Assembly: GCA_001295865.1 (NCBI GenBank)
Contig: LJHW01000015.1
Coordinates: 1-64,000 of the forward strand
Origin: a beta proteobacterium AAP65
Lineage (GTDB): Bacteria > Pseudomonadota > Gammaproteobacteria > Burkholderiales > Burkholderiaceae_C
Length of the DNA: 64,000 nt
Direction: 5' to 3'
The translations under genes and the position numbers were made by a program. The notes beneath the pieces were generated by a model. It was not told the DNA's origin and did no database searches. It worked only from the letters and a program-made list of their open reading frames with translations. Numbering within the stretch: the first letter of the stretch is position 1; each line of letters begins with the position of its first letter. Below are positions 23,417 to 36,096 of this stretch, one piece after another.

Positions 23417-24133
23417 TCAGATCGACATCTTCTGCCGCACGCCCTCGGCTTCCATGTCGGCGCCGCGCCCGCGCTGCACGATCTCGCCGCGCTCCATCAC
23501 CAGGTACTGGTCGGCGATTTCGGCGGCAAAGTCGTAGTACTGCTCCACCAGCACGATGGCCATGGTCTTGCGGTCGGCCAGCATGCGGATGACGCGCCCG
23601 ATGTCCTTGATGATGCTGGGCTGGATGCCCTCGGTGGGCTCGTCCAGCATCAGCAGCTGCGGGCCGGCGGCCAGCGCGCGCGCAATGGCCAGCTGCTGCT
23701 GCTGCCCGCCCGAGAGGTCACCGCCGCGGCGGTGCAGGAACTGCTTCAGGATGGGAAACAGCTCGAAGAGCTCGGCCGGGATGGCCGTGCCGCCAGGCTT
23801 GACAGCCAGGCCCATGCGCAGGTTCTCTTCCACCGTCAGGCGGCCGAAAATCTCGCGGCCCTGGGGCACGTAGCCGATGCCGCGTTTCACACGTTCGTAG
23901 CTCGGGGCTTTGGTGATGTCCTGGCCGGCCAGCTTGACGCTGCCGGTCTTCACGGGCACCACGCCCATCAGGCTCTTGAGCAGCGTGGTCTTGCCCACGC
24001 CGTTGCGGCCCAGCACCACCGTCACCTCGCCCAGCCGCGCCTCAAAGCCGAGGCCGCGCAAGATGTGGCTGCCGCCGTAATACTGGTTCAGGCCCTCGAC
24101 CTGCAACACAGGGCGCGTGGTGTCAGCGGCCAA
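23417..24133 (-). CDS. urtE: Urea ABC transporter ATP-binding protein UrtE
   Basis: Second ATPase of the UrtABCDE urea importer. It shows Walker A (GRNGVGKTT), the ABC signature (LSGGQQQQL) and Walker B (LLMLDEPTEG), with the family start QVEGLNQYYGGSH near the N-terminus. The TTG at 24133 is chosen because GAGG lies about 6 bases upstream; an in-frame GTG at 24109 would give the more canonical N-terminus and remains possible. The gene overlaps urtD by 11 bases, so it is the last gene of the tightly coupled operon. Confidence 0.92.
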   Translation of the reverse strand: MAADTTRPVLQVEGLNQYYGGSHILRGLGFEARLGEVTVVLGRNGVGKTTLLKSLMGVVPVKTGSVKLAGQDITKAPSYERVKRGIGYVPQGREIFGRLTVEENLRMGLAVKPGGTAIPAELFELFPILKQFLHRRGGDLSGGQQQQLAIARALAAGPQLLMLDEPTEGIQPSIIKDIGRVIRMLADRKTMAIVLVEQYYDFAAEIADQYLVMERGEIVQRGRGADMEAEGVRQKMSI

Positions 24134-24965
24134 GGTACACCTCGACAACCTTCTCGTTGGCCTGCACGTCGGACAGCAGCCCCTCGGCCAGCACTGAGCC
24201 CTCGTGCAACACCGTCACCTGCTTGCGCCCCTGCGTCAGCTGGTCGACGAACTTCATGTCGTGCTCCACCACCACCAGGCTGTGCTGGCCCTCCAGCGTG
24301 AGAAAAAGCTCGGCGGTGCGTTCGGATTCTTCGTCGGTCATGCCGGCCACGGGTTCGTCCAGCAGCAGCAGTTTCGGGTCTTGCATCAGCAGCATGCCGA
24401 TCTCCAGCCACTGCTTCTGGCCGTGGCTCAGCAGCCCCGCGGTGCGCCGCACCTCGGGCTGCAGGTGGATGAGCTTCAGCACGTCTTCGATGCGGCCGAG
24501 CTGTTCGCTGCTGAGGCGGTGGAAGAGTGCGGCACGCACGCCGCGGTCGGCCTTCAGCGCGAGCTCGAGGTTCTCGAAAACGCTGAGCTGCTCATAGACC
24601 GTGGGCTTCTGGAACTTGCGGCCCACGCCGATCTGGGCGATCTGCGGTTCGCTCAGGCGCAGCAGGTCGACGTTGCTGCCGAAAAAGACGGTGCCGCTGT
24701 CGGGTCGCGTCTTGCCGGTGATGCAGTCCATCATCGTCGTCTTGCCCGCGCCGTTGGGGCCGATGATGCAGCGCAGCTCGCCCACGTTGATGGTGAGCGA
24801 GAGCTTGTTCAGCGCGCGAAAGCCGTCGAAGCTGACCGTGATCTCGTCAACGTACAGCGCCACGCCCTGGCCGAAATAGACCTGCTCGCCGTCAACGACG
24901 CTGCGGGTCTTGCTGCGGTGAGCGGCGAGCTTCTGCGCACCGGCCTCCATCAGGTCGGGCGTCAT
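24123..24965 (-). CDS. urtD: Urea ABC transporter ATP-binding protein UrtD
   Basis: First ATPase of the urea importer, 280 residues. Walker A (GPNGAGKTT), signature (LLSHGQKQWLEIG) and Walker B (LLLLDEPVAG) are present, with the long insertion and VVVEHDMKFV H-loop typical of branched-chain-amino-acid-like (HAAT) transporters. The ATG overlaps the urtC stop by four bases (ATGA). Confidence 0.95.
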   Translation of the reverse strand: MTPDLMEAGAQKLAAHRSKTRSVVDGEQVYFGQGVALYVDEITVSFDGFRALNKLSLTINVGELRCIIGPNGAGKTTMMDCITGKTRPDSGTVFFGSNVDLLRLSEPQIAQIGVGRKFQKPTVYEQLSVFENLELALKADRGVRAALFHRLSSEQLGRIEDVLKLIHLQPEVRRTAGLLSHGQKQWLEIGMLLMQDPKLLLLDEPVAGMTDEESERTAELFLTLEGQHSLVVVEHDMKFVDQLTQGRKQVTVLHEGSVLAEGLLSDVQANEKVVEVYLGR

Positions 24966-26086
24966 GCACGGTCCTCCGGCTTGCGGCGACGCAGCTTGGC
25001 GAAGAGGCCGATCAAGCCCTGGGGCAGGAACAGCGTCACCGCGATGAACAGCGCGCCCAGGAAAAACAGCCAGTACTCCGGAAAGGCCACCGTGAACCAG
25101 CTCTTCGCACCGTTGACGAAAAACGCGCCGAGGATGGGCCCGATGAGCGTGGCGCGCCCGCCGACCGCGGCCCAGATGGCGATCTCGATGCTGGCCGCCG
25201 GGCTCATCTCGCCGGGGTTGATGATGCCCACCTGCGGCACGTACAGCGCGCCGGCCACGCCGCACATCACGGCGCTGAGCGTCCAGATGCTGAGCTTGTA
25301 GGCCACGGGGTTGTAGCCGGTGAACATCACGCGCGTCTCGGCGTCGCGGATGGCCTGCAGCACACGCCCGTACTTGCTCTGCACGATGAAACGCGCCATC
25401 AGGAAAAAGGCAATGAGTACCAGCCCGGTGATAACGCACAGCAGCACACGCATGCTGGGCGTGGCGATGGGCACATCGAGGATGCGCTTGAAATCGGTGA
25501 AGCCGTTGTTGCCGCCGAAGCCGGTTTCATTGCGGAAGAACAGCAGCATGGCCGCGAAGGTGAGCGCCTGCGTGATGATGGAGAAGTAAACGCCCTTGAT
25601 GCGGCTGCGGAAGGCGAAGTAGCCGAACACGAAGGCCAGCAGGCCCGGCACCAGCACCACCAGCAGCATCTGCGCGATGAAGCTGTCGCTGAGCGCCCAG
25701 TGCCACGGGAATTCCTTCCAGTCCAGGAAGACCATGAAGTCGGGCATTTCGCTCTTGTACTGGCCGTCGGTGCCGATCTGGCGCATGAGGTACATGCCCA
25801 TCGCGTAGCCACCGAGCGCGAAAAAAAGTCCGTGGCCGAGCGAGAGGATGCCGGTGTAGCCCCAGATCAAATCCATGGCCAGAGCGCAGATGGCGTAGCA
25901 AAGGATCTTGCCCAGCAGCGTGACGTAGAAGTCGCTCAGGTGCAGCGCATTGCCTTCGGGCACCAGCAGGTTGAGCACCGGCACCAGCACCGTGATCACC
26001 ACCACCGCCGCCAGCACCGCGGCCCAGCCCTTGGCGCCAAGCAGCGAGTTCCTGGGCGCGAAGCCCGTGTCGGTCAGGGCACTCAT
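24962..26086 (-). CDS. urtC: Urea ABC transporter permease UrtC
   Basis: Inner-membrane permease of 374 residues with about 9-10 helices (LivM-like). The segment DLIWGYTGILSLGHGLFFALGG is the family's conserved loop. It overlaps urtB by four bases upstream and urtD by four bases downstream, so the subunits are made in fixed ratio by coupled translation. Confidence 0.95.
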   Translation of the reverse strand: MSALTDTGFAPRNSLLGAKGWAAVLAAVVVITVLVPVLNLLVPEGNALHLSDFYVTLLGKILCYAICALAMDLIWGYTGILSLGHGLFFALGGYAMGMYLMRQIGTDGQYKSEMPDFMVFLDWKEFPWHWALSDSFIAQMLLVVLVPGLLAFVFGYFAFRSRIKGVYFSIITQALTFAAMLLFFRNETGFGGNNGFTDFKRILDVPIATPSMRVLLCVITGLVLIAFFLMARFIVQSKYGRVLQAIRDAETRVMFTGYNPVAYKLSIWTLSAVMCGVAGALYVPQVGIINPGEMSPAASIEIAIWAAVGGRATLIGPILGAFFVNGAKSWFTVAFPEYWLFFLGALFIAVTLFLPQGLIGLFAKLRRRKPEDRA

Positions 26087-27660
26087 TCGGCGCTTCTCCC
26101 CTTGAGGGCGAAGATGCCTTGCGGCCGCTTCTGGATGAAGGCCACGATGAAGAGCAGCACCATGATCTTGGCCAGGACCGCGCCCTGCCAGCCTTCGAGC
26201 ACCTTGTTCATCAGCCCCAGGCCCAGGCCGGCGTAGACGGTGCCGGCGATCTGCCCCACGCCGCCCAGCACCACGACCATGAAGCTGTCGACGATGTAGC
26301 CCTGGCCGAGGTCAGGCCCCACGTTGCCCACCTGGCTGAGCGCGCAGCCCGCGAGACCCGCGATGCCGGCGCCGAGCGCGAAGGCATAGGTGTCCACACG
26401 CGCCGTGTTCACGCCCACGCAGGCGGCCATGCGCCGGTTCTGCGTGACGCCGCGCACGAAGAGGCCCAGGCGCGTCTTGCCGATCAGCAGCGCCATGCCC
26501 AGCAGCACCAGCGCCGCAAAAGCCAGGATGGCCAGGCGGTTGTAGGGCAGCACCAGATTCGGCAGCACCTGCACACCGCCGGAGAGCCAGCTCGGGTTCT
26601 CGACGCCCACGTTCTGCGCGCCGAAGAGGCTGCGCACGCACTGCATCAGGATGAGGCTGATGCCCCAGGTGGCCAGCAGCGTTTCCAGCGGCCGGCCGTA
26701 GAGGAAGCGGATGACGCTGCGCTCCATGGCCGCGCCCACCAGGGCGCTGGCGAGAAAACTCAAGGGAATGGCCGCCAGGATGTAGGCGTCGAAGGCCCCC
26801 GGGAAGTAGGCGCGGAAGACGTTCTGCACGCCCCAGGTGGCGTAGGCGCCGATCATGATCAGCTCGCCATGCGCCATGTTGATGACGCCCATCAGCCCGT
26901 AGGTGATGGCCAGGCCCAAGGCCGCCAGCAGCAGGATGGAGCCCAGGCTCACGCCCGTGAACAGCAGGCCCAGGCGTTCGCCCCAGGCCAGGCGCGCGTT
27001 GACGGTGTCCAGCGTGCGCTGCAGCGCGGCCTTGACCTCGCCGTCTTCTTCGGCGGCCAGGCGCTCGATGAGCAGGCCCTTGACGGAAGGCTGGTCGCTG
27101 TCGGCCAGCAGTTGCGCGGCGGCCAGGCGCTGCGCACGGTCGCTGCTGGCCACCTGCGCGGTGGCTTTCAGCAGGGCCAGCGCAGCGCGGATCTGTGGGT
27201 CGGTTTCGCTCTTGGCAGCTTTCTCGAAGAGCGCGAGCTTGCCTTCATCGGCCTGCTCCTTCAGCTCTTCCACGGCCTTCAGGCGCACGGCGCGCTCGGG
27301 CGAAAACAGGTTCAGCGCCGAGAGCGCCGCTTCCAGTTCGCGGCGCACGCGGTTGGGGTTGACCACGTCTTCGGCCTCGGCCGGCAGCGTGGCCGCGGCA
27401 GCCGTGGCCGCATCGGTCACCTGGTCACCACGCACGATGTAGGCCTTGCCACCAGCGAGCTTCACCTCGTCGGCCAGCAGGGCCTGCACGTAGGCGCTGA
27501 GCGCCGGGTCGGCGGCCAGCACCACTTCGTTCAGCGCAGCGATGCGGTCGTCGCTCTCGCCCTGCGCGATGCGCAGGGCCTGGTCGGGGCTCAGCGCCAG
27601 CGCCGAGCCCACCCACAGGCAACACCACAGCGCTGCGCACAGCGTGCGCAGCAGTCTCAC
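26083..27660 (-). CDS. urtB: Urea ABC transporter permease UrtB
   Basis: Inner-membrane permease of 525 residues. A signal-like leader (1-22) is followed by an extracytoplasmic helical-repeat region (about 25-225, HEAT-like) and then the LivH-type permease (about 235-525, containing YGLMGVINMAHGELIMIGAY). The N-terminal extension is usual for UrtB and distinguishes it from LivH. It starts four bases after the urtA stop. Confidence 0.95.
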   Translation of the reverse strand: MRLLRTLCAALWCCLWVGSALALSPDQALRIAQGESDDRIAALNEVVLAADPALSAYVQALLADEVKLAGGKAYIVRGDQVTDAATAAAATLPAEAEDVVNPNRVRRELEAALSALNLFSPERAVRLKAVEELKEQADEGKLALFEKAAKSETDPQIRAALALLKATAQVASSDRAQRLAAAQLLADSDQPSVKGLLIERLAAEEDGEVKAALQRTLDTVNARLAWGERLGLLFTGVSLGSILLLAALGLAITYGLMGVINMAHGELIMIGAYATWGVQNVFRAYFPGAFDAYILAAIPLSFLASALVGAAMERSVIRFLYGRPLETLLATWGISLILMQCVRSLFGAQNVGVENPSWLSGGVQVLPNLVLPYNRLAILAFAALVLLGMALLIGKTRLGLFVRGVTQNRRMAACVGVNTARVDTYAFALGAGIAGLAGCALSQVGNVGPDLGQGYIVDSFMVVVLGGVGQIAGTVYAGLGLGLMNKVLEGWQGAVLAKIMVLLFIVAFIQKRPQGIFALKGRSAE

Positions 27661-27664
27661 GGGC

Positions 27665-28963
27665 TTACTTCTTGGCGGCCATCACGGGCTCGTCCTTCTT
27701 GCCCTTGTTCTCGGGGATGTAGGGGCTCCAGGGCTGCGCCTTCACGGGGCCCTTGGTCTTCCACACCACGTTGAACTGGCCGTCGGCCTTGATCTCGCCG
27801 ATGAACACGCTCTTGTGCAGGTGGTGGTTCTTCTCGTCCATCTTGCTGACGATGCCCGAGGGCGCCTTCACCGTCTGGCCGGCCATCGCGGCGATGACCT
27901 TGTCGGTGTCGGTGCTCTTGGCCTTGGTGACGGCCTGCGCCCACATGCGGAAACCGATGACGCTGGCTTCCATCGGGTCGTTGGTCAGCGGCTTGTCCTT
28001 GTGGCCGGCGATGTTCTTCGCCTTGGCGTAGGCGCTCCACTGCTTGATGAACTCGTCGTTGGTCGGGTTCTTGATGCTCTGGAAGTAGTTCCAGGCCGCC
28101 AGGTGACCCACCAGCGGCTTGGTGTCCACGCCACGCAGTTCTTCTTCACCCACCGAGAAGGCCACCACCGGCACGTCGGTCGCCTTCAGGCCCTGGTTGC
28201 CCAGTTCCTTGTAGAAGGGCACGTTGCTGTCGCCGTTGATCGTGGAGACAACCGCGGTCTTCTTGCCCTCGCTGCTGAACTTCTTGATCTTGGCGATGAT
28301 GCTCTGGTAGTCGGAGTGGCCGAAGGGGGTGTACTCCTCCATGATGTCGCTGTCGGCGACGCCCTTGCTCTTCAGGAAGGCGCGCAGGATCTTGTTGGTG
28401 GTGCGCGGGTAGACGTAGTCGGTGCCCAGCAGCACCCAGCGCTTGGCGCTGCCGCCGTCCTTGCTCATCAGGTATTCCACCGCGGGGATGGCCTGCTGGT
28501 TGGGCGCGGCACCCGTGTAGAAGACGTTCTTGCTGAGTTCTTCGCCTTCGTATTGAACGGGATAGAACAACAGGCCGTTGAGCTCTTCGACAACCGGCAG
28601 CACGCTCTTGCGCGAAACGCTGGTCCAGCAGCCGAAGATGACGGCGACCTTGTCCTTGCTGATGAGCTGGCGGGTCTTCTCGGCGAACAGCGGCCAGTTC
28701 GAGGCCGGGTCCACCACCACGGGCTCGAGCTTCTTGCCCAGCAGGCCGCCCTTGGCGTTGATGGCCTCGATCTCCATCAGGATGGTGTCCTTCAGCACCG
28801 TCTCGCTGATGGCCATGGTGCCGGACAGCGAATGCAGCACGCCGACCTTGATGGTCTCTTGCGCGAAGGCGCTGGTGCTGATGCCGAAGGTGGCTGCGGC
28901 GGCGGCCGCGGCGATGAGGGTCTTGCCGACGTGGCGGCGTGTGGTGCTGCTGGGCTCGTTCAC
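27665..28963 (-). CDS. urtA: Urea ABC transporter substrate-binding protein UrtA
   Basis: Periplasmic urea receptor of 432 residues. After a signal peptide (about 1-35, ending SAFAQ) it begins ETIKVGVLHSLSGTMAISE, a hallmark of UrtA. The start is a GTG at 28963 with GGAG and GAGAG upstream; no in-frame ATG fits. It is the first gene of urtABCDE. Two strong palindromes lie between it and the hemerythrin gene and are candidate control sites. Confidence 0.95.
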   Translation of the reverse strand: MNEPSSTTRRHVGKTLIAAAAAAATFGISTSAFAQETIKVGVLHSLSGTMAISETVLKDTILMEIEAINAKGGLLGKKLEPVVVDPASNWPLFAEKTRQLISKDKVAVIFGCWTSVSRKSVLPVVEELNGLLFYPVQYEGEELSKNVFYTGAAPNQQAIPAVEYLMSKDGGSAKRWVLLGTDYVYPRTTNKILRAFLKSKGVADSDIMEEYTPFGHSDYQSIIAKIKKFSSEGKKTAVVSTINGDSNVPFYKELGNQGLKATDVPVVAFSVGEEELRGVDTKPLVGHLAAWNYFQSIKNPTNDEFIKQWSAYAKAKNIAGHKDKPLTNDPMEASVIGFRMWAQAVTKAKSTDTDKVIAAMAGQTVKAPSGIVSKMDEKNHHLHKSVFIGEIKADGQFNVVWKTKGPVKAQPWSPYIPENKGKKDEPVMAAKK

Positions 28964-29011: not shown

Positions 29012-29052
29012 GCGGGGCCGGCCCCGCGCGAGAAATACGCCGGACGGCGTAT
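29012..29052. promoter_or_regulatory. Two palindromes upstream of urtA
   Basis: GCGGGGCCGGCCCCGC (29012-29027, perfect 8+8) and ATACGCC-GGAC-GGCGTAT (29035-29052, perfect 7+7) sit in the 100-base gap between the hemerythrin stop and the urtA start. The second has the ATA...TAT ends of some nitrogen-regulator sites, but its spacing does not fit the NAC consensus. Operator or terminator roles are both possible. Confidence 0.45.
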
Positions 29053-29063
29053 GGGTGCGGTGC

Positions 29064-29492
29064 TCAGGCCTCGGCCGGGTTCCCCGCCTTCGCGGCCTGA
29101 ACGGCCTGCATCGCCTGGGCCAGCCCCCAGTCCATGCTCTGCGCGTGCACCGGGAACCACTGCGCCAGCGCCGGCACCAGCGCGCCCACCACGGCCACGT
29201 CGCCCTGCTGCACCAGCCGGCGTTGCACTTCGTGCACCAGTTCCAGCACCTGCCGGTGCTCCTTGCCGTGGCAGTGGTCGGCGCCGAAGCCGATCTCCTG
29301 CAGCCAGCGCTCTTCCTGCGCGAAATGCGCTTCGGTGTGCTGCACGAAGGCGTCCAGCACGGCGGCGAGCTGGATGGCATCGCTGCCCAGCGCCGCTTCC
29401 ACGCAGGCGAGCCGTTCGACGAACTCGCGGTGGGTGTCGTCGATCTCGGGTTGCTGCAGGGCGAGGGCGTCGGACCAGGTGAGCGCGGGCAT
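29064..29492 (-). CDS. Bacteriohemerythrin
   Basis: Soluble four-helix di-iron O2-binding protein of 142 residues, near the usual length of single-domain bacteriohemerythrins. Ligand residues are recognisable: the early His in DDTHREF, HTEAHFAQEE in the second helix, the HCHGKEH...LVHEV region, and HAQSMDW with the final His and Asp. It lies upstream of and co-directional with urtA, but the 100-base gap with palindromes makes co-transcription uncertain. A link to urea metabolism is not known. Confidence 0.85.
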   Translation of the reverse strand: MPALTWSDALALQQPEIDDTHREFVERLACVEAALGSDAIQLAAVLDAFVQHTEAHFAQEERWLQEIGFGADHCHGKEHRQVLELVHEVQRRLVQQGDVAVVGALVPALAQWFPVHAQSMDWGLAQAMQAVQAAKAGNPAEA

Positions 29493-30144: not shown

Positions 30145-31182
30145 TCAGGCCGCCAGGTCGGCGGCCGGCTCACCGGCCATCACCACCTGGTCGCGGCCGC
30201 GGCGCTTGGCTTCATAGAGCGCGGCGTCGGCGGCGCGCAGCCAGGCCTCGACATCGCGCACGGCCGCCAGCGCGCTGACGCCGATGCTCACCGTCAATGG
30301 CTCGCTGCCCAGCAAGCCGCTGGCGGCCACGCGCTGCCGCAGCGCCTCGGCCACCTGTTGCGCGTCGGCTTCGGAGGCGCGCGGCAGCAGCAGCATGAAC
30401 TCCTCGCCGCCGGTGCGGAACAGCAGATCGCCCAGGCGTTGCCGCGTGCCGATCAGGCGCACCAGGCCCTGGAGCACCTCGTCGCCGCGGCCGTGCCCGT
30501 GGCGGTCGTTGATGCGCTTGAAGTGGTCGACGTCGATGGCCAGCAGCACCGGGCCGGGGCCTGGCGCGGCCTGCTGGGGCAGGCTCAGGTTGTCGAGTTG
30601 CGTCTGCAGGTGGCGGCGGTTGTAGCAGCCGGTGAGCGGGTCGGTGATGGCCTGCAGCATCAGCGTCTGCTGCAGTTGCCCGATGAGCCGCAGCACCATC
30701 AGGATCATCAGCAGCACGAAGGCCAGCGAGAACAGCACCCGCAGCGCTAGCCCGGTGCCGAGCGTCACCTGCGCCAGCACGCACACGGGCAGCACCAGCA
30801 GGCCGCAGAACAGCAGTGCCTTGCGGTGTGGCAGCGCGAAGAACAGCAGGAAAAGCATGGGGTAGGACCACACCAGCCCCGGCATGCCCTGCAGGTAGGT
30901 CGACGTGAGGATGGCCGCGATGAGCAGCACCGCCAACAGCTCGAAGGGCACCAGCGGCGTCTGCGCTGCGCGCAGCCTTGCCGCGTTGCGCAGCAGCAGC
31001 AGTGAAACCGCCGCGTTCAGCAGACCCATGGCCAGGTTGCCCTGCACCAGGTGCACCACGCCCGTGGCGACGATGGCCCAGCCGCCCAGGCGACAAAAAC
31101 GCGCGACCAGGCTCCCGCGGTGCTCGGCGAGCACGTCGTGGTCGATCTGGAATGTCTGCGCCCAAGCGCGCCAAGCCCTCAT
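30145..31182 (-). CDS. Membrane-bound diguanylate cyclase (GGDEF)
   Basis: Enzyme making cyclic di-GMP from two GTP. It has about six membrane helices (residues 30-168) and a C-terminal GGDEF domain (about 175-340) with intact active site GGEEF (258-262), and an upstream RxxD (R249-D252) that is a product-inhibition I-site at the right distance. The 345-residue length fits. It is co-directional with the downstream hemerythrin-urtA run and separated from the response regulator by 45 bases; no sensory domain beyond the membrane region is evident. Confidence 0.92.
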   Translation of the reverse strand: MRAWRAWAQTFQIDHDVLAEHRGSLVARFCRLGGWAIVATGVVHLVQGNLAMGLLNAAVSLLLLRNAARLRAAQTPLVPFELLAVLLIAAILTSTYLQGMPGLVWSYPMLFLLFFALPHRKALLFCGLLVLPVCVLAQVTLGTGLALRVLFSLAFVLLMILMVLRLIGQLQQTLMLQAITDPLTGCYNRRHLQTQLDNLSLPQQAAPGPGPVLLAIDVDHFKRINDRHGHGRGDEVLQGLVRLIGTRQRLGDLLFRTGGEEFMLLLPRASEADAQQVAEALRQRVAASGLLGSEPLTVSIGVSALAAVRDVEAWLRAADAALYEAKRRGRDQVVMAGEPAADLAA

Positions 31183-31227: not shown

Positions 31228-32217
31228 TCAGCTGCGTGAGAGTTCGCGCACCCGCTGCAAGGCCATGGCGGCCGCGGCCGTGCGCGTTTCGACACCCAGC
31301 TTTTCATAGATGCGCTCCAGGTGTTTTTTCACGGTGGCCGGGCTGCTGCCCAGGATGTCGCCGATGTCGCGGTTGGTCTTGCCCTTGGCCACCCAGTACA
31401 GCACCTCGCTCTCGCGCAGCGTCAGGCCGAAGGCCTGCATCGTGGCTTCCACGGTGGCCGCATCGCTCACCTCGCGCAGCACCACGAGCCAATCTTCGTC
31501 GACTGTGCGGCCCTGCAGCGTGGCCACCAGCTGGCGCGCACCACGCGCGGTGCTCAGCGGGCGCACCTCGCGGCCGGCGGCGGCGTCGAGCAGCCAGGCG
31601 TGCAGCGGGGCGGGCAGCTGGTCGGGCACGGCATCGAAGTAGGCCGGCAGCCACTGGCGCGCCAGCGGCGTCTGCCAAACCAGGCGGGGCGCGGCGGCCG
31701 GCGTGGCGCCCAGGCGCACGGCGATGGTGGCGTGGCCGTAGGCATCCAGCGCGTTGCGCGCCTGCCGCGCCTGGCGCGCGGCCTGCATGTGCGCGGCCAT
31801 GCGCGCCAGCACCTCTGGCGCGCGGATGGGCTTGGTGACGTAGTCCACGCCACCGGCGTCGAAGGCCGCCAGCACATGCTCGGTCTCGGTCAGGCCGGTC
31901 ATGAAGATGATGGGGATGTGCGCCGTCTCGGGCCCGGCCTTCAGGCGCCGTGCCACTTCGAAGCCGTCGATGCCCGGCATCACGGCGTCGAGCAGCACGA
32001 TGTCGGGGTCGGCCTGCGCGGCGCGCTGCAGAGCGCGCGCGCCGTCGGTGGCCACCAGCACGGTGTAGCCGGCGGCGTCCAGCGCGTCGTGCAGCACGGC
32101 CAGGTTGTCGGGCACATCATCGACGATCAAGACGACGCCCGCGCTGCGGGCACGGCCCAGGGGATCGGCGGCGGCGCTGGGGTCGGACGGGTTCTCAGGC
32201 GGGTTCGGCACGGGCAA
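31228..32217 (-). CDS. Response regulator, REC plus LuxR-type HTH
   Basis: Transcription factor of 329 residues: receiver domain (about 27-145, phospho-acceptor D77, acidic pair D33-D34, K129), a middle segment of about 100 residues with no clear motif, and a LuxR-type helix-turn-helix (about 264-320, LTLRESEVLYWVAKGKTNRDI). It overlaps the 3' end of the hybrid kinase gene by 23 bases, so the two are made together and form a cognate pair. The reading begins at TTG 32217; a GTG at 32211 is equally possible. Likely targets are the neighbouring urea genes (inference from position). Confidence 0.9.
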   Translation of the reverse strand: MPVPNPPENPSDPSAAADPLGRARSAGVVLIVDDVPDNLAVLHDALDAAGYTVLVATDGARALQRAAQADPDIVLLDAVMPGIDGFEVARRLKAGPETAHIPIIFMTGLTETEHVLAAFDAGGVDYVTKPIRAPEVLARMAAHMQAARQARQARNALDAYGHATIAVRLGATPAAAPRLVWQTPLARQWLPAYFDAVPDQLPAPLHAWLLDAAAGREVRPLSTARGARQLVATLQGRTVDEDWLVVLREVSDAATVEATMQAFGLTLRESEVLYWVAKGKTNRDIGDILGSSPATVKKHLERIYEKLGVETRTAAAAMALQRVRELSRS

Positions 32218-35200
32218 GGGCGAGGTCGATCAGGGCTTGCACGCCCTCGAACTGGAAGGCCTGGGCCAGGGCACGCAACGGGGCCAACCAGGCCTCGCAT
32301 TCTGGGCTTTCGCTTTCGATGCGCGCCAGCGCCTGCTGCACGCCGCGTGGGTAGCCCAGGCGCACCATCTCCTGCAGCGCCAGCAGCTGCGCGCGCGTGG
32401 GCAGCGGGGCGTCGGCCGGCGGGGTGGCGGGCGGCGGTGGTGGCAAGGCGGGCGCTGACAACCACACCAGCGCGAGGTGCTGGCCCAGCCAATCGAGCAG
32501 TTCGTCGAAACGCACGGGCTTGGTGATGAAGTCGGCCGGGGTGATGCCGCAGTCGTTCTCCAGGCCCTTGTCGAAGGCATTGGCCGAGACGATGGCCACC
32601 GGCGCTTCGCTCAGGCCCTGGGCGCGCAAGGTGCGGATGGTCTGCCAGCCGTCGATGCCGGGCATGGCCAGGTCCATGAGGATGGCGTGCACCGGCGCGG
32701 GCGGCTCGGCGCTGCGGGCCTCTTGCAGCAGCGCCAGCGCGGCCTGGCCCGAGCCGGCTTCCAGCACGTCGAAACCCAGGGCCTGCAGGCGCCGCGCCAG
32801 CAGCGTGCGGTCGACCTCTTCGTTGTCCACCACCAGCAGCCGGCGGCGTGCGCCTTCGTAACCGCGGCGTGGCGGGCGCGGGCCGGGCACGCGCTGGCCT
32901 CGCAGCTCGGGCAGGAAAAGACGCACGCGGAAGACCGTGCCTTCGCCCAGCTTCGTGCTCACCGTGAGCTCGCCACCCATCAGGTCGGTCAGCATCTTGG
33001 CGATGGTCAGGCCCAGGCCGGTGCCACCGCCCGGGGCGGCGCCCGTGCTGCCGGCCGGGCCGCCGCGCGAGAAGGGTTCGAAGATGCGTTCCAGGTCTTC
33101 GGCCGCGATGCCCGGGCCGGTGTCCTCGATCTCGAACACGGCCATGTCGCGCAGGTGCGCGGCGCGAAAGGCCACGCGCCCGCGCTGCGTGAACTTCACC
33201 GCGTTGCCCAGCACGTTGATGAGGATCTGCGTCAGCCGCCGCTCGTCGGCGCGCACCAGCGCCGGCGCGCCTTCGATGTCGTGCTCGAAGCGCAGGCCCT
33301 TGCTCAGCGCCTGCAGCTCGAACATCTGCACGATCTGCTGCAGGCTCTCACGCAGGCGCATGGGCTTGGGCTCGAGCGTGAGCTTGCCACCTTCGATGCG
33401 CGCGATGTCCAACGTGCCTTCGATCAACCCCAGCAAATGCTCGCCGCCGCGCCGGATGACGCCTACGGCCTGCTTGCGGTGCACGGGCAGCGTGGGGTCT
33501 TCGTCCAGCAGCTGCGCGTAACCGAGGATGCTGTTTAGCGGCGTGCGCAGCTCGTGGCTGATGGCGCTGATGTAGCGCGTCTTGGCCTGGTTGGCGCCCT
33601 CGGCCTGGCGACGCGCGGCCTCGGCGGCCAGCCGGGCGCGCTGCAGCTCTTCGTCGGTGCGGGCGTGGCTGTCGATCTCGCGCACCAGGGCTTCGGTCTG
33701 GCGGTTGCTTTCTTCCTGCGCCACGCGGCGGCTGATCTGCGTGAGCACCAGCCACCAGGCGATCACGCCCGACAGCAGCAGCAGCGCGCAGTAGGCCTTG
33801 ATGAAAGCCGTGCGCAGCGCCGGCGCCGCGGCGGCCGCGGCCTCGGTGCCGGCAGCGGCGAGGGCGCGAACCTCGGCCTCGTGCAGCAGGTAGAGCAGCG
33901 CGGCCAGCGAGGGCGCCACCACCGCCATCACCAGCAGGTAGCGACCCAGGCCGGTTTCCAGCTGCGGCCACCAGCGCTGCGGCGTCAGGCGGCGCAGCGC
34001 GGCGGTGAGCTGCACGCCGGCGCGTGCGGCCTCGGGTTTGCACAGGTCGTGGCAGCGCGCGTCCAGGCTGCAGCACAGGCTGCAGATGGGGCCGCCGTAG
34101 GCCGGGCAGCCCGCCATGTCTTCGCCTTCGTACTCGCGCTCGCAGATGACGCAGCGGCGCAGCGCCTGCAGGCCGCTGCGTTGGGCGAGGTAGGCGCCCT
34201 CGCACTCGCCCTCCGCCGCGGCTGTGGCCTGCGGCCCGCGCGCCAGGTAGTAGCGGCTCTTCGTGGCCCACGCGATCAGCGGTGCGGCGACGAAGGCCAC
34301 CGCCATCGCGATCACCGCCGAGAAGGCCTCGGCCATCGGCCCGAAAGCGCCCAGGTGCGCGGTGATGGAGAGGACGGAGGCCAAGCCCATCGCGCCCACG
34401 CCCACGGGGTTGATGTCGTAGAGATGGGCGCGCTTGAACTCGATGCCTTTGGGCGACAGGCCCAGCGGCTTGTTGACCACCAGGTCGGCCACCACTGCCA
34501 TGATCCAGCTGATGGCGATGTTGCTGTACAGGCCCAGCACGCCGCCGATGGCCTGGAAGACTTCCAGCTCCATCAGCATCAGCGCGATCAGCGTGTTGAA
34601 CACCATCCACACCACGCGGCCGGGGTGGCTGTGCGTCACGCGCGCGAAGAAGTTGCTCCAGGCCAGGCTGCCGGCATAGGCGTTCGTCACGTTGATCTTG
34701 AGCTGGCTCACCACCACGAACAGCGCCGTGGCCGCCACCGCCCAGCCGTAGTGGTTGAAGACCAGCTCGTAGGCAGCCAGGTACATCTGGTTGGGGTCCA
34801 CCGCGCGGTCGGCGGGCACTGCCAGCTTCAGCGCCAGCAGGGTCAGCAGCGCGCCGCCCAGCATCTTCAGCACCCCGGGCACCACCCAGCCGGGCCCGCC
34901 CAGCAGCACCGCGCCCCACCAGCGCCAGCGGTTGGCGCGGGTCTGCTCGGGCATGAAACGCAGGTAGTCGACCTGCTCGCCCATCTGCGTGATGAGGGCC
35001 ACGCCCACGGTGAGCGCGCTGCCGAAGAGCAGCGGGTTGAAGCTGCCGCCCTGGCCGTCCAGGCCCGCGTAGCTGCGCAGGTCGCTGGCCAGCGTCGGGT
35101 GGGCCTGGAAGACGTAGACATAGGGCAGTACCAGCAGCACGAGCCACACCGGCAGCGTCCACATCTGCAGCTGGCTGACACGCGTGACGCCGTGCGTCAC

Positions 35201-35713
35201 CAGCGGTATCACCACCAGCGAGCACACCAGGTAGCCCCAGGCCGGCGGCAGGCCGAAGGCCAGCTCCAGCGCGTAGGCCATGATGGCCGCTTCCAGCGCG
35301 AAGAAGATGAAGGTGAAGCTGGCGTAGATGAGGCTGGTGATGGTGCTGCCGATGTAGCCGAAGCCGGCGCCGCGGGTGAGCAGGTCCATGTCCAGCCCAT
35401 GGCGGGCGGCATAGACGCTGATGGGCAAACCGGCGGCAAAGATGATGGCCGCGGTGCCCAGGATCGCCCAGAAGGCGTTGACGAAGCCGAACTGCAGCAG
35501 CAGCGTGGCGCCCAGCGCCTCAAGCACCAGGAAGCTGGCCGCGCCGCCCACCGCGGTGTGCGCCACGCGCCAGGGGCTCCACTTGCGGAAAGAACGCGGC
35601 GTGAAACGCAGCGCGTAGTCTTCCAGCGTCTCGCTGGCCACCCAGGCGTTGTAGTCGCGCCGGACCTTGATGACACGTTGCTGCGGGGCGGGGGCGGTCG
35701 GCGGCGGCGTCAT
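32195..35713 (-). CDS. Transporter-fused hybrid sensor histidine kinase
   Basis: A 1172-residue membrane sensor. Residues about 45-485 form a 12-helix transporter resembling the nucleobase:cation symporter-1 (purine/cytosine permease) family. Then a cytosolic Cys cluster (C521, C524, C536, C544, C547, C548, C554, C558), two more helices (about 590-610 and 640-658), a coiled linker, HisKA with H720 in SHELRTP, an ATPase with N837, DTGPGI (864-869) and GTGLGL (897-902), and a receiver with D1014 and K1065. A Pro-rich C-terminal tail of about 90 residues follows. The gene is divergent from ureA and overlaps its response regulator. It probably senses substrate binding or transport, as proposed for CbrA-like transporter kinases; urea or a purine-derived compound is a guess. 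Confidence 0.9.
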
Positions 35714-35761
35714 CAGGGCCTGCGGGTTTGCACGTTGCGGGCCAAGCGGGCTGTGCGGCTT

Positions 35762-35778
35762 ACATTGGCACCCAATGT
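35762..35778. promoter_or_regulatory. Perfect palindrome between the hybrid kinase and ureA
   Basis: ACATTGG-CAC-CCAATGT, arms of 7 bases, lies 16 bases before the ureA ATG in an 80-base divergent gap. It is placed to control both genes and suits a dimeric regulator such as the adjacent LuxR-type response regulator. The same bases contain a sigma-54-like GG-N10-GC pattern (35767-35780), though it is very close to ureA. Confidence 0.5.
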
Positions 35779-35793
35779 GCTGACGAGTGGCTT

Positions 35794-36096
35794 ATGGACC
35801 TGACGCCAAGAGAGAAAGACAAGCTGCTGATCTTCACGGCCGCCTTGCTGGCCGAGCGCCGCAAGGCACGCGGGCTCAAGCTCAACGTGCCGGAGGCCAT
35901 CGCGCTGATCACCGCCGCCATCATGGAAGGCGCGCGCGATGGCAAGACCGTGGCGCAGCTGATGAGCGAGGGCAAGACCGTGCTCACGCGCGACGAGGTG
36001 ATGGAGGGCGTGCCCGAGATCGTCACCGAGATCCAGGTCGAAGCCACCTTCCCCGACGGCACCAAGTTGGTGACCGTGCACCAACCCATAGCATGA
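35794..36096 (+). CDS. ureA: Urease gamma subunit
   Basis: Smallest structural subunit of Ni-urease (urea + H2O to ammonia and carbamate). The 100-residue length and the sequence [20 protein letters not shown], with [13 protein letters not shown], are standard. It begins the urease cluster; ureD, which normally precedes ureA in related genomes, is absent, and a sensor kinase occupies that place. The stop overlaps the next small gene (ATGA). Confidence 0.97.

Follow-up and report, generated by a model that had tools for sequence, protein, structure and literature searches.

We analysed a window of 64,000 nucleotides from the beta proteobacterium AAP65 (GenBank assembly GCA_001295865.1, contig LJHW01000015.1, positions 1 to 64,000), in which a hybrid histidine kinase of 1172 amino acids (32195-35713, minus strand) and a LuxR-type response regulator (31228-32217, minus strand) lie between genes for urea uptake and urease. 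Computation established the domains of the kinase, the fold family of its membrane half, its gene neighbourhood and the association of a palindromic DNA motif with it. The membrane half is placed in the NCS1 superfamily of carriers by sequence profiles and a predicted structure, and the palindrome stands before urtA. It is likely that the protein is an NCS1 'transceptor' kinase, i.e., a transporter-like sensor on a kinase, whose LuxR-type partner activates urea and amide uptake.

Open reading frames (ORFs) and Pfam domains bear out the original prediction of a 1172-residue transporter-kinase with an overlapping LuxR-type regulator, divergent from ureA. From the N terminus, the kinase consists of an NCS1-type permease, a module with eight cysteines, a membrane hairpin and, all on the minus strand, HisKA (residues 711-776; 33386-33583; PF00512), HATPase_c (residues 823-934; 32912-33247; PF02518) and receiver domains (residues 960-1074; 32492-32836; PF00072). 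The regulator, of 329 amino acids, combines a receiver with a GerE/LuxR helix-turn-helix domain. A residue check found the phospho-accepting residues His720 and Asp1014 in the kinase and Asp77 in the regulator. These domains and residues, together with the position of the regulator immediately after the kinase at almost every locus, identify the pair as a two-component hybrid kinase with a LuxR-type response regulator. No histidine phosphotransfer (HPt) domain was found in the kinase with Pfam. The two genes overlap by 23 bases given a TTG start codon for the regulator; this start is uncertain, and so is the exact overlap. In the homologous locus L059 the regulator likewise overlaps the kinase by 23 bases, but with an ATG start.

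The permease half (residues about 30-489; 34247-35626, minus strand) had no credible Pfam match in any of 23 homologues and did not reach the gathering cut-off of PF02133. Sequence searches of the PDB and Pfam with the permease and with the cysteine module gave no usable match either. At the profile level, the family profile found a standalone permease (L177) with an E-value of 8e-48, and L177 passes the PF02133 cut-off. Alignment of the family with hhalign gave an E-value of 1e-31 for a wider NCS1 set; for two NCS1 proteins picked by Pfam, 378 columns aligned at an E-value of 2.3e-6. An AlphaFold model of 675 residues, with a mean predicted local distance difference test (pLDDT) score of 81, had the NCS1 carriers CodB and Mhp1 as its best matches, with Z-scores of 34.1 for CodB (7qoa), 27-29 for Mhp1 (2jln, 4d1a) and about 23 for the next families. 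The L177 link, hhalign and the AlphaFold model agree in assigning the permease half to the NCS1 superfamily. The SSS family was also considered and was ruled out, as hhalign gave a probability of 0.7 with SSS proteins taken from this genome. The resemblance to NCS1 nucleobase carriers in the original prediction was thus upheld by hhalign and by the CodB Z-score of 34; in the profile comparison proposed along with it, NCS1 homology was recovered between profiles, the PF02133 cut-off was missed and SSS failed. Based on the family profile, related permeases are also present in another class of the phylum. The standalone permease (L177:7949-9442) lies beside a CN-hydrolase and a Peripla_BP_5 protein, and is possibly an NCS1-family amide carrier.

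The permease is followed by a cysteine-rich module (residues about 515-563; 34025-34171, minus strand), in which Cys 521, 524, 536, 544, 547, 548, 554 and 558 are invariant across the aligned homologues. The same module is carried by kinase-free permease copies (L178 and L302), indicating that it is part of the permease unit and not of the kinase. The pattern of the cysteines suggests that the module possibly binds a metal. According to the secondary structure of the AlphaFold model, a predicted helical hairpin (residues 579-674; 33692-33979, minus strand) leads from there to the kinase.

A motif search in the sequences that separate the kinase from amide-type urt genes yielded the palindrome ATACGTCAnnTGACGTAT, for which counts were made with the relaxed form TACGYCAnnTGRCGTA and at most two mismatches. 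The palindrome goes with the kinase system: 54 of the 62 kinase neighbourhoods have it ahead of a urtA-type gene, a count that takes in 35 of the 37 true urtA genes, and it precedes none of the 45 urtA-type genes in genomes without the kinase. Shuffled sequences reached the same score in 0.4%. A pattern search of 36 genomes also located it at urtA genes distant from the kinase (G049, and genomes of Zoogloea, Denitromonas, Polaromonas, Acidovorax and Variovorax), and at formamidase-type loci it lies between the kinase and its target. At L181 and L182, which have no LuxR-type regulator, it was never better than three mismatches. Where the kinase is at a formamidase locus, a separate true urtA is without the palindrome; the system thus follows the uptake genes paired with it. 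The single exact match to TACGYCRNNYGRCGTA in this genome, ATACGCCGGACGGCGTAT at 29035-29052, lies 81 bp before urtA begins. It is the predicted operator of the response regulator, and is conserved at urtA-type genes solely in genomes with the kinase. This supports urtABCDE, one of the targets originally predicted for the pair, as controlled via the palindrome, and suggests the response regulator as the binder.

Further observations concern the palindrome. In genomes G047 (locus L058) and G091 (locus L057) the kinase pair is present, and the palindrome is found neither at the locus nor upstream of the true urtA. L047 (G191) was noted together with these two. An exact palindrome at L274:1501-1516 (G119) lies 37 bases before an ORF for a membrane protein that, as read from sequence, resembles a nucleoside transporter; it is due to chance or marks another target.

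The pair is widespread in Pseudomonadota. We examined about 115 kinase loci, 80 of which were well covered, with at least 8 kb on each side. The survey of homologues beside urease that had been suggested with the original prediction found urease, urt genes, or a urt-like transporter with formamidase nearby in 68 of these 80 loci. Among 200 genomes of the order, 35 of which contain a kinase homologue, urease is present in 33 of the 35 kinase genomes and in 48 of the 165 others, and the FmdA clade in 23 and 6, respectively. In the usual Burkholderiales form, which includes the window, the kinase is divergent from ureA. In a second form the divergent neighbour is a urt-like transporter sharing about 40% identity with Urt, and fmdA and fmdB come after it; the FmdA protein of this form belongs to PF03069 with an E-value below 1e-178. 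In a tree of the permeases the early branches seem to be those of the formamidase-type loci, and a later group seems to hold most urease-type loci, among them the window. Two kinase genomes lack urease, and their kinase is longer and built differently. These longer relatives (L068:8142-12263 and L071:8623-12813; 1373 and 1396 amino acids) have a different kinase end, and their genomes are also without the FmdA clade. NadA, NUDIX and GGDEF-EAL genes lie near the L068 relative, and the ligand of both may be different.

Variants that separate the sensor from the kinase were found at several loci. In three genomes of one genus (G460, G754 and G755), a kinase-free permease with the cysteine module stands in for the ABC transporter; its gene diverges from the kinase and immediately precedes fmdA. 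At L181 and L182 the sensor half is joined to a kinase that has no receiver and adjoins a receiver-kinase-type gene, near fmdA. The kinase-free copy of L302 lies among allophanate hydrolase-, carbamoylase- and amidase-like ORFs, named from sequence without a profile. It is the sensor half, rather than the kinase type, that goes with amide and urea metabolism. Because the kinase-free copies adjoin formamidase or allophanate hydrolase-like and amidase genes, the ligand would be urea or an amide rather than a purine.

We propose that an NCS1-fold carrier, from a subfamily associated with urea and short amides, forms the N-terminal half, and that ligand binding or transport would alter its conformation. 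The cysteine-rich, possibly metal-binding module and the membrane hairpin would relay the signal to the HisKA/HATPase core, and phosphate would pass to Asp77 of the response regulator, directly or through a relay. The regulator would then bind the palindrome upstream of urtA and activate urtABCDE. In this genome urea is the most likely ligand, since no FmdA was found in it and its sole exact palindrome is at urtA. In relatives with formamidase at the locus the ligand is probably formamide or similar amides. We also lean slightly towards a broader family of transceptor kinases, in which an NCS1-fold urea/amide sensor occurs with or without a kinase, is found on at least two kinase types, and acts through a defined operator at urea and amide uptake genes.

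Several points weigh against this proposal. No urease, urt or formamidase-type gene was found nearby in 12 of the 80 well-covered loci, and a true urtA is without the palindrome in some kinase genomes (G047, G091). About 0.3 exact matches of the palindrome per genome are expected by composition alone, so that the weight of the match lies in its position. The permease differs at only nine positions between urease-type and formamidase-type loci, and sequence therefore does not assign the ligand. The genomes are related and shared ancestry was ignored in the tests, whose values overstate the evidence. Finally, we infer, rather than observe, the ligand, the metal, the phosphate route, the response regulator as the binder, and activation rather than repression.

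The nearest gene to the kinase is ureA (35794-36096, plus strand; assigned from sequence and kept in homologous loci), which is divergent from it, starts 80 bp away from the kinase start and is followed by ureB, ureC, ureE, ureF and ureG. The short divergent arrangement is kept in 55 loci with gaps under 500 bp, as would be expected if the pair chiefly controlled ureA and urease, and urt only secondarily. We regard this as unlikely, since the palindrome is located at urtA-type genes and is absent from the kinase-ureA gap of the window and from the other gaps inspected. A first motif scan of the ureA gaps was swamped by conserved ureA coding sequence; the trimmed gaps gave no palindrome and a sigma-54-like signal. 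In the window, a sigma-54-like -24/-12 site (TGGCACCCAATGTGCT; 35766-35781, plus strand) with one mismatch to TGGCACN5TTGCW points towards ureA, back-to-back with a sigma-54-like site towards the kinase (35729-35744, minus strand). Across the 55 homologous gaps, 46 have such sites facing ureA and 39 facing the kinase, with 2.9 expected. Direct control of ureA by the regulator, as part of the control of ureABC in the original prediction, was consequently not supported. Given the separate sigma-54-like promoter of urease, nitrogen limitation probably governs urease, with the pair adjusting uptake. The -12 element of many homologues stands just 12-17 bases before the ureA start codon, which would leave almost no leader. 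An inverted repeat in the ureA gap, ACATTGG-CAC-CCAATGT, was first read as an operator and is now considered part of the sigma-54-like site.

Two other explanations concern the ligand and the palindrome. The best fold matches are structurally known NCS1 carriers of cytosine (CodB) and hydantoins (Mhp1), which would fit a sensor of a purine- or pyrimidine-derived compound such as allantoin, uracil, cytosine or hydantoin, tying purine breakdown to urease. The neighbours across loci are instead urease, urt, formamidase and amidase genes and an allophanate hydrolase-like gene, kinase-free copies stand directly before formamidase, and no allantoinase, the only purine-pathway enzyme tested, was found above the cut-off in this genome (best match 170.8 bits, curated cut-off 357.85). 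The purine and allantoin link of the original prediction is improbable on these grounds. We assign the lowest probability to a palindrome that belongs to another regulator, with the kinase-regulator pair acting elsewhere. Binding of the palindrome by the response regulator is predicted from sequence, and the search for other urt regulators was not systematic, which leaves some room for such a regulator. The motif nonetheless tracks the kinase system (54 of 62 against 0 of 45). It occurs in the stretch from kinase to target at formamidase-type loci, turns up at urtA genes remote from the kinase, and is missing from loci that have no LuxR-type regulator. An NCS1-type sensor of urea or amides that acts on uptake genes is the reading we prefer.

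The predicted target operon urtABCDE extends from urtA down to 23417 on the kinase strand, beyond a GGDEF-domain gene and on the far side from ureA. It comprises urtA (27665-28963, GTG start; TIGR03407), urtB (26083-27660 as the ORF is listed, with a true start that may be further downstream; TIGR03409), urtC (24962-26086; TIGR03408), urtD (24123-24965) and urtE (23417-24148; TIGR03410), all on the minus strand. The assignment of urtD is based on its reading frame and translation; used as a tblastn query, this frame recovers urtD genes from homologous loci. The GGDEF-domain gene (diguanylate cyclase; 30145-31182, minus strand) lies between the response regulator and urtA, and no conserved link to the kinase system was seen. 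An ORF of 142 amino acids just upstream of the operator and urtA (29064-29492, minus strand) reads like a bacteriohemerythrin, named from sequence without a profile.

If the proposal is correct, the window encodes an NCS1-type transceptor kinase, together with a switch on urt genes that responds to urea; the literature searched describes neither. It would bring together a probable urea or amide ligand, natural kinase-free counterparts with the same cysteine module, and a defined DNA target. Urea is a major nitrogen source and a fertiliser; direct tests of how it is sensed would become possible in many Burkholderiales, and the system could provide a natural biosensor for urea or amides. Our literature search found no characterised urea- or formamide-responsive kinase, NCS1 amide carrier or NCS1-type kinase; most subscription journals were outside this search, and priority is unproven.

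Two reports describe related gene orders. Ectopseudomonas guguanensis G3 has an annotated histidine kinase-LuxR pair beside urtABCDE and fmdA (PMC13296017), an order that, by annotation, matches the formamidase-type loci. That report names just a hybrid kinase and a LuxR-family regulator, with sensor or target undescribed. In Bradyrhizobium, a urt-like transporter beside formamidase was identified with SIMBAL, and a non-urea amide was proposed as its substrate (PMC3098086). This transporter type is the one near the kinase in our formamidase-type loci, and the Bradyrhizobium study discusses no sensor kinase.

The CbrA literature describes fusions of a transporter to a kinase as rare (PMC13022988). 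The SLC5-STAC histidine kinases CbrA, with CbrB in Pseudomonas (PMC13022988, PMC7096432), CrbS (PMC5715377) and RpuS (PMC9100948) likewise join a whole transporter domain through a linker module to a histidine kinase, and share with the present system a nutrient ligand and a partner regulator. The parallel to CbrA-type kinases drawn in the original prediction accordingly holds for the architecture and fails for the transporter domain, which is SLC5/SSS in those proteins and NCS1 here, where the SSS profile fails and the target is urt. The linker here is a cysteine-rich module with a hairpin and may differ from STAC, for which Pfam scans gave no match; no separate search for the four-helix STAC fold was made. 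The ammonium sensor kinase Ks-Amt5 (PMC5764959) similarly carries a transporter-like domain on a histidine kinase and senses a nitrogen compound, but has the Amt fold and a different ligand. CodB and Mhp1 share the fold of the sensor half and, unlike the kinase described here, are plain carriers of cytosine and hydantoins without a cysteine module or kinase. The other transporter-kinase fusions in the literature searched use SLC5 or Amt domains, to which NCS1 would add another class.

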